Origin: an uncultured Sphingomonadales bacterium
Lineage (GTDB): Bacteria > Pseudomonadota > Alphaproteobacteria > Sphingomonadales > Sphingomonadaceae
Reading direction: 5' to 3'
Assembly: GCA_903839675.1 (NCBI GenBank)
Contig: CAIMDB010000017.1
Location: 1 to 59,284, forward strand
Length of the DNA stretch: 59,284 nt
The translations under genes were made by a program, and so were the position numbers. The notes beneath the pieces were generated by a model. The model did not search any database, was not told the origin of the DNA, and saw nothing but the letters and a program-made list of their open reading frames with translations. Numbering within the stretch: position 1 is the stretch's first letter; each line of letters opens with the position of its first letter. This document shows positions 46,618-46,805 of this stretch, in pieces.

Positions 46618-46653
46618 TGCGTGACCCCTTTTTCAGCACAGAATGCCGGTGGT

Positions 46654-46805
46654 GAGTCATCGCGAGTCCCGCGTCAACCCTTGGAGTCTGGCTTGAATCC
46701 TTGAGATTCGCTCTCTGAAAAGCGGAACGAAACGAGTCCCCCACGATATGTGGCACAAAGTTATCCACAGGGACTCAAGCCCTAGTGGTGTGACGGGGAA
46801 GACTC
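46654..46805. promoter_or_regulatory. Cluster of eight GANTC methylation sites upstream of ccrM
   Basis: GANTC occurs at 46654, 46664, 46684, 46695, 46705, 46734, 46772 and 46801 (five GAGTC/GACTC-type variants and one each of GAATC and GATTC among them). One site per 256 bp is expected by chance at even composition. The cluster spans the promoter region of ccrM. Methylation here could feed back on ccrM, as known for two sites in Caulobacter. Confidence 0.8.
46761..46769 (+). promoter_or_regulatory. Consensus DnaA box
   Basis: TTATCCACA, a perfect match to the strong DnaA box, lies two bases before a GACTC methylation site. It is about 145 bp upstream of the ccrM start, between rnhB and ccrM. 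Confidence 0.6.

Follow-up and report, generated by a model that had tools for sequence, protein, structure and literature searches.

A helically phased cluster of GANTC sites upstream of ccrM in Sphingomonadaceae, a candidate methylation-sensitive promoter

Introduction

GANTC methylation is a main epigenetic mark of the Alphaproteobacteria, and its decoding at promoters outside Caulobacter is little known. The adenine methyltransferase CcrM methylates GANTC, and the Caulobacter ccrM promoter itself contains two GANTC sites that provide feedback. In Caulobacter, activation at 40-60 min is described for transcription start sites (TSSs) with a GANTC between -10 and -35, and only 11 of the 96 cell-cycle TSSs with a GANTC no more than 50 bp upstream have two or more (PMC4287350). 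Excerpts from a second study describe a preference of the regulator GcrA for methylated over unmethylated GANTC, and a GcrA footprint that spreads to -35..+7 on fully methylated ctrA P1 (PMC3667746), providing a precedent for cooperative spreading from methylated sites. Other studies report that GANTC is depleted in genomes and enriched between genes (PMC3973325), that among the m6A motifs of a Sphingomonas it is the most abundant (PMC8067484), and that anoxia represses ccrM 7-fold in Sphingopyxis granuli TFA (PMC6472365). Closest in taxonomy to the locus described here are the ctrA promoters of Sphingomonadales, which resemble it in carrying one to five GANTC in the 300 bp upstream; phasing, spacing and analysis of the ccrM promoter were not found in the excerpts of that work (PMC8116508).

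Here we describe a GANTC array upstream of ccrM in an uncultured Sphingomonadales bacterium, with the analysis centred on the whole 59,284-nt stretch of DNA containing it (the window). The helical lattice formed by these sites is the new part of the analysis, and the interpretation given in an earlier sequence-only reading of the same DNA, a methylation- and replication-linked switch or an origin-like element controlling ccrM, is partly supported. In the literature searched, which was covered in part, no phased GANTC array at ccrM was found described, and an earlier description is possible.

The GANTC cluster and its genomic background

The array lies between rnhB and ccrM (Table 1). The ccrM product is 92% identical to its counterpart in Chakrabartia godavariana, the nearest among the best 80 of at least 587 matches, and its NF050803 score is below the cut-off of 830 for this Caulobacter-named equivalog. 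The sequence-only reading reported eight GANTC within 152 bp, all placed between the two genes and far above chance. Direct counting gives the same eight sites over 152 bp (46654-46805), of which seven lie wholly inside the rnhB-ccrM gap (46618-46803) and the eighth, at 46801-46805, shares bases with the rnhB stop codon. The excess over chance also stands, with an amended expectation: the earlier value of 0.6 is an equal-base figure, and 0.16 sites are expected in 152 bp at the sampled density of 1.08/kb (780 sites in 721,356 bp, amounting to 25% of the 2.91-Mb genome, window included). The window as a whole is depleted in GANTC, with 72 sites compared to 252 expected from dinucleotide shuffles. 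In the same 721-kb sample, the richest 156-bp stretches outside the array contain four GANTC (3 of 772 stretches starting at a GANTC) and never more; similar density elsewhere in the genome, which would have refuted the earlier reading, is not seen in this sample. Among the 80 relatives described below, 517 kb of DNA flanking ccrM contains 709 GANTC-started 156-bp stretches, none with four or more sites. One of the only three other places in the own-genome sample with four sites in 156 bp, at L094:2347-2583 (C7), precedes a gene identified by eye as dnaA-like, and contains five GANTC in 237 bp with irregular spacing and no lattice. The gcrA gene of this genome has one GANTC within 300 bp.

The relatives used for comparison are the best 80 of at least 587 encoding a ccrM relative, assigned to Sphingomonadales or to unplaced metagenome bins, giving 81 loci with the window. 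The cluster is present in all 81, and conservation upstream of ccrM, which the sequence-only reading proposed as a check, extends to 80 of the 80 relatives kept. Counted from -141 to +25 relative to a TTGAC element, it comprises 2-10 GANTC with a median of 6, and there are at least four sites in 71 loci, three in nine and two in one; for module-distance counts, TTGAC was chosen by score in each locus. At the ccrM locus of a Sphingopyxis granuli strain other than TFA (L015), nine GANTC lie within 300 bp. Comparison of the window with the C. godavariana locus (L001) shows retention of all 28 GA/TC letters of the seven sites in the compared stretch, and of six of the seven site centres, compared to 124 of 151 other positions. 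The position of rnhB varies, ending at -190 in some relatives and lying more than 1 kb away in others, while the array stays in place, indicating that the cluster belongs to ccrM. Between rnhB and a thiD-like gene, the window also contains a GC-rich imperfect inverted repeat (47363-47478), which gives weak microRNA-type matches below Rfam gathering scores and resembles a dispersed intergenic palindrome.

Anatomy of the control region

The features of the region are collected in Table 1. The -35/-10 assignment was made by eye, and a simple sigma-70 scan found no consensus promoter at TTGAC, site E or site F. Site C of the upstream module (-79/80) is present in 64 of the 81 loci, with a C centre in 63 of these 64, and is lost in the window, which carries three extra sites between TTGAC and the module. 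Conserved positions outside the GANTC sites include CACACC and GTTC; the latter, as [CT]GTTC at -50 to -53, gives 57 matches over the 81 loci, and its columns are nearly invariant in A1 (40 sequences). The B arm and the inverted C arm resemble a common consensus, which is also seen as reverse-strand matches of R1, a sequence-only model of the module. A LexA box was considered for the GTTC element and rejected, GTTC being single in the array of the window. CtrA was likewise considered and rejected: TTAACC is common in the relatives near -39, -28 and -15, and none was seen in the array of the window.

Table 1. Features of the ccrM control region in the window. Signed positions are on the ccrM strand, numbered from the T of TTGAC; locus counts refer to the 81 loci compared.
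Feature	Position	Strand	Basis
ccrM, GANTC adenine methyltransferase, 371 aa	45502..46617	-	NF050803, 604.6 bits
GANTC site F, +19, at presumed -10	46654..46658	-	60/81 loci; centre C 50/60
GANTC site E, +9 (+8/9 across loci), in presumed -35/-10 spacer	46664..46668	-	66/81 loci; centre mixed
TTGAC, presumed -35, lattice reference point	46673..46677	-	assigned by eye
Optional lattice site, -11	46684..46688	-	GANTC
Optional lattice site, -22	46695..46699	-	GANTC
Optional lattice site, -32	46705..46709	-	GANTC
Upstream module A-D, modelled as R1	46723..46809	-	site C absent in this genome
Conserved GTTC, just downstream of site D	46725..46728	-	alignment over loci
GANTC site D, -61, upstream module	46734..46738	-	45/81 loci; centre C 41/45
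Perfect DnaA box TTATCCACA (TGTGGATAA on the ccrM strand), about -92	46761..46769	+	
GANTC site B, -99, upstream module	46772..46776	-	63/81 loci; centre G 63/63
Conserved CACACCAC element between sites A and B	46785..46792	-	locus comparison
GANTC site A, -128, overlapping rnhB stop codon	46801..46805	-	74/81 loci; centre G 74/74
rnhB, ribonuclease HII	46804..47361	-	ribonuclease HII model matches

Helical lattice and spacer classes

GANTC positions across the loci give a sharp spectral peak at 9.8 bp, with z 27.5 in 72 non-redundant loci against 200 random placements (near-duplicates were dropped, leaving 73 of 81, followed by one locus with fewer than three sites), while the largest null z at any period is 4.2. 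The window alone is phased at p = 0.008 in a scan over periods of 8-13 bp. Only five of 15 other N-centred palindromic pentamers have enough sites to serve as controls, four of them reaching z 2.8 or less, and the fifth, AGNCT, which overlaps GAGTCT, giving z 5.0 over ten loci. Coding sequence was rejected as an explanation, since the 9.8-bp period is not a multiple of three and the loci differ by 1-bp indels.

Two further comparisons take shared ancestry among the loci into account. In the first, the distance from site A to TTGAC falls into three classes, with two loci at 118, 56 at 126-130 and 12 at 137-140 bp, in the 71 of 81 loci measured by rule, in one of which a distance of 120 came from a mis-picked site and was corrected by hand to 129. 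None of the 71 distances lies between the classes after this correction; nine loci without a rule-based site A were classed by hand from B or C, and there the emptiness between classes is by construction. On a CcrM tree built with a quick setting, the spacer class changes nine times over 80 of the 81 loci (L033 being moved from class 118 to class 128, since its site A had been confused with a second GAGTC, and L064 being left out), a count that cannot separate gain from loss.

In the second comparison, extra sites outside A-F account for 68 change events on the same tree. The 65 of these at a distance of at least 5 bp from conserved sites have a mean phase cosine of 0.508, compared to 0.177 +/- 0.085 for random placement, with 0 of 20000 simulations as good; the period was estimated on these very loci, and adjacent positions are treated as separate events, which are not fully independent. 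The centres of extra sites in lattice slots are free (32 A, 28 G, 23 T and 19 C, n=102), apart from slot A2, where all 7 are G, and their flanks carry at most 0.41 bits of information per column. With free centres and so little flank information, what selection seems to preserve at the optional slots is mainly the CcrM target itself, together with its phase, and not a longer motif. Relaxed B-DNA has 10.5 bp per turn. The observed period is shorter, which counts against the explanation that we favour below; by way of speculation, a 9.8-bp pitch could reflect left-handed wrapping or overwinding of the DNA.

Taxonomic range of the module and the lattice

The family is taken here as GTDB Sphingomonadaceae. 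R1 matches its own genome once, at ccrM, in a search that scored 150 of 436 first-look candidates and could miss weak copies. Under the stricter filters of a 60-genome search, it matches 14 of 14 genomes of the same family and 2 of 46 from other families of the order, both weakly, one of the two upstream of ccrM. A candidate second copy in one genome (G159), located before a nuoA-like gene (named by eye) and with one GANTC nearby, looks like a chance match and was rejected.

In a sister-family sample (18 fetched of 42 genomes with ccrM), GANTC recur near -20, -39, -61, -91, +7 and +19, the 9.8-bp peak is weak (z 2.3) and the best period is 13.9 (z 7.9), and the 60 sites upstream of TTGAC tend towards the phase seen in the family (mean cosine 0.344). 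The 18 loci (L162-L181 without L173 and L180) contain eighteen GANTC at -18 to -21 from TTGAC, mostly as ttGATTC, and their upstream sites are often inside the end of rnhB. A class-wide sample comprises 60 genomes fetched of 117 with a CcrM match, mostly best matches, of which 59 are outside the order. TTGAC followed by both GANTC, i.e. the core pair, is present in 27 of these 59, where no such lattice is seen among the upstream sites (65 sites with a mean cosine of -0.19; z 6.9 at a best period of 11.3 bp), and a wider outside-order set gives a broad, weaker peak at 10.3-11.4 bp (z about 6). Four loci outside the order (L106, L116, L117 and L125) contain 7-8 GANTC within 300 bp upstream of ccrM, without the 9.8-bp lattice. 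Phasing was considered as a class-wide rule, and was not found in the genomes outside the order. Because the core pair occurs in 27 of 59 genomes there and the lattice does not, the core pair is widespread and probably old, and the 9.8-bp lattice is, on the loci compared, a trait of Sphingomonadaceae. Helical phasing, spacer classes one turn apart, fixed module centres and the wide occurrence of the core pair in the class were all absent from the sequence-only reading.

DnaA boxes

That reading had also pointed to a perfect DnaA box two bases from a GANTC, which is indeed present: TTATCCACA is the sole perfect DnaA match in the window and lies two bases from the GANTC at 46772. In the 81 loci, 37 contain a total of 39 boxes, compared to 0.15 boxes expected from shuffles. 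In a second count of 41 boxes, one orientation is shared by 10 boxes at -91 to -94 and 19 at +28 to +32, with the remaining 12 scattered or in the opposite orientation. By our own arithmetic, the box centres at both places fall no more than about 1 bp from the centre of a lattice slot. In eight loci (L005, L009, L011, L012, L016, L022, L024 and L028), site B is missing and a DnaA box is in or beside its place, as if the two kinds of site could stand in for each other at this position.

A proposed mechanism for methylation-sensitive ccrM expression

The cluster is real, is the densest in the sample, is conserved and sits on the presumed promoter, which makes a methylation-linked feedback switch its natural reading; to this extent, and with DnaA boxes recurring, the methylation- and replication-linked switch of the sequence-only reading holds up, and its origin-like variant does not. 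The explanation that we favour, with a probability of about 0.55, is that the region comprises the ccrM promoter and an upstream operator forming a methylation-sensitive array, on which a cooperative same-face complex, likely containing GcrA, would assemble. In this mechanism, TTGAC would serve as the -35 element, and a protein dependent on GANTC methylation would dock cooperatively along one DNA face, at the sites that are in phase, and contact RNA polymerase at the core pair. Docking on one face together with polymerase contact implies that the distance from the module to the -35 may change only by whole turns, a kind of change that would be tolerated by a protein bridging to RNA polymerase or by an unbroken complex along the same face. 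CcrM would methylate the array and replication would leave it hemimethylated, with the altered GcrA occupancy setting the timing of ccrM transcription, and DnaA at its slot would provide an added replication input.

GcrA is encoded in the same genome (PF07750, 139.8 bits against a cut-off of 26.9; among 14 controls, this model matches in Caulobacter and, unexpectedly, in Sulfolobus), and the protein matches solved Caulobacter GcrA chains in the PDB (2.7e-29) over both terminal parts. It is the likeliest reader of the array, an identification that we hold tentatively, at somewhat less than even odds. The centres of sites A-D are fixed and their flanks conserved beyond what GANTC methylation needs, which counts against the favoured explanation: another factor may own the module, and the pattern suggests a second, sequence-specific contact at A-D. 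Also counting against it, a reading by GcrA alone would be expected to give a wider lattice, and the lattice is weak or absent beyond the family. A broader proposal, which we consider doubtful, is that the family (Sphingomonas, Sphingopyxis, Novosphingobium, Erythrobacter and kin) reads in-phase GANTC through a cooperative lattice assembly with a pitch of about 9.8 bp, possibly wrapped left-handed on a protein core. Such an assembly would sense the number of fully methylated and hemimethylated sites and so register the passage of replication at ccrM. It would be the alphaproteobacterial equivalent of sequestration by SeqA, with GcrA or a new reader as its basis and DnaA as an interchangeable member of the lattice.

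Alternative explanations

The same fixed centres (Table 1; site C as above) would be accounted for if module A-D were the operator of one or more ordinary regulators with a motif containing GAGTC (CCACnnnATnTTGAGTC, inverted at B/C), the methylation there being incidental and the core pair alone methylation-controlled. Retention of CACACC and GTTC outside the sites, and the inverted consensus shared by the B and C arms, are consistent with such an operator; however, the extra GANTC with free centres and low flank information still favour the lattice and would be left unexplained by an unrelated motif, and we regard this possibility as rather unlikely. Those free centres at optional slots, and the phasing of the methyl sites themselves, are instead consistent with a SeqA-like mechanism, in which a protein specific for hemimethylated or unmethylated GANTC pairs same-face sites behind the replication fork, sequestering the promoter and delaying ccrM expression or remethylation. 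The dense, same-face methylation sites of a SeqA-type element are present at the array, and excerpts of in vitro work describe efficient binding of SeqA to same-face GATC separated by two to three whole turns (PMC5145175). However, the SeqA family (PF03925) has no match in the 96% complete genome, the E. coli control being positive, and SeqA is described on site pairs and not on fixed 150-bp arrays, making this mechanism unlikely. If such a reader were nevertheless a new hemimethylation reader, it would to our knowledge be the first SeqA-like counterpart in Alphaproteobacteria.

CcrM might also bind its own array cooperatively and repress its own gene, gauging its own free concentration. This would be in line with the optional slots sharing the CcrM target with N free, and with the occurrence of the module at ccrM alone in its own genome; but the fixed centres of A-D are not needed by CcrM, for which we know of no phase requirement, and the proposal is improbable. 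Far less probable is the origin-like or DnaA-driven element raised by the sequence-only reading. The perfect DnaA box 2 bp from a GANTC and the boxes in 37 of 81 loci are in its favour, whereas the window has a single box, with the next one-mismatch matches more than 5 kb away, 44 of the 81 loci have none, and the module goes with ccrM, where it is found once. An origin would show several DnaA boxes with an adjoining AT-rich unwinding region; at the array, this combination is absent, and GC falls only slightly, to 53-54% from 57-63% around. An RNA hairpin or terminator from the upstream gene, suggested by the inverted repeat that arms B and C form (0.519 to 0.534 identical, compared to 0.256 for random stretches), has a probability close to nil: identity of the arms is 0.519 within and 0.534 between loci (50 loci), and such lack of within-locus covariation is consistent with an operator in DNA but not with a hairpin in RNA. 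Neither a terminator-like site nor an Rfam family was found at the array.

Comparison with known systems

A family-wide array at one gene with strict geometry allows direct tests of cooperative same-face reading of methylation, and the array DNA could be used as bait for finding the reader protein. Among described systems, the Caulobacter promoters controlled by GcrA and CcrM (ctrA P1, mipZ and ftsZ) resemble the array in having GANTC between -35 and -10 (presumed here), in the presence of both GcrA and CcrM, and in the control of a cell-cycle gene. Unlike these promoters, the array spreads its sites (median six, at most ten) along a helical lattice of about 150 bp, and has an upstream module of fixed orientation and spacer classes one turn apart. 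The E. coli SeqA/GATC clusters at oriC and the dnaA promoter likewise combine clustered methylation sites with DnaA boxes at a cell-cycle locus, and differ in methylase and motif, with no SeqA found in the genome studied here. In the excerpts of the SeqA work available, the GATC of oriC are not spaced by whole turns, whereas the GANTC of the array are, and same-face phasing aids cooperative binding in vitro (PMC5145175), making SeqA of E. coli the closest mechanistic parallel to the array.
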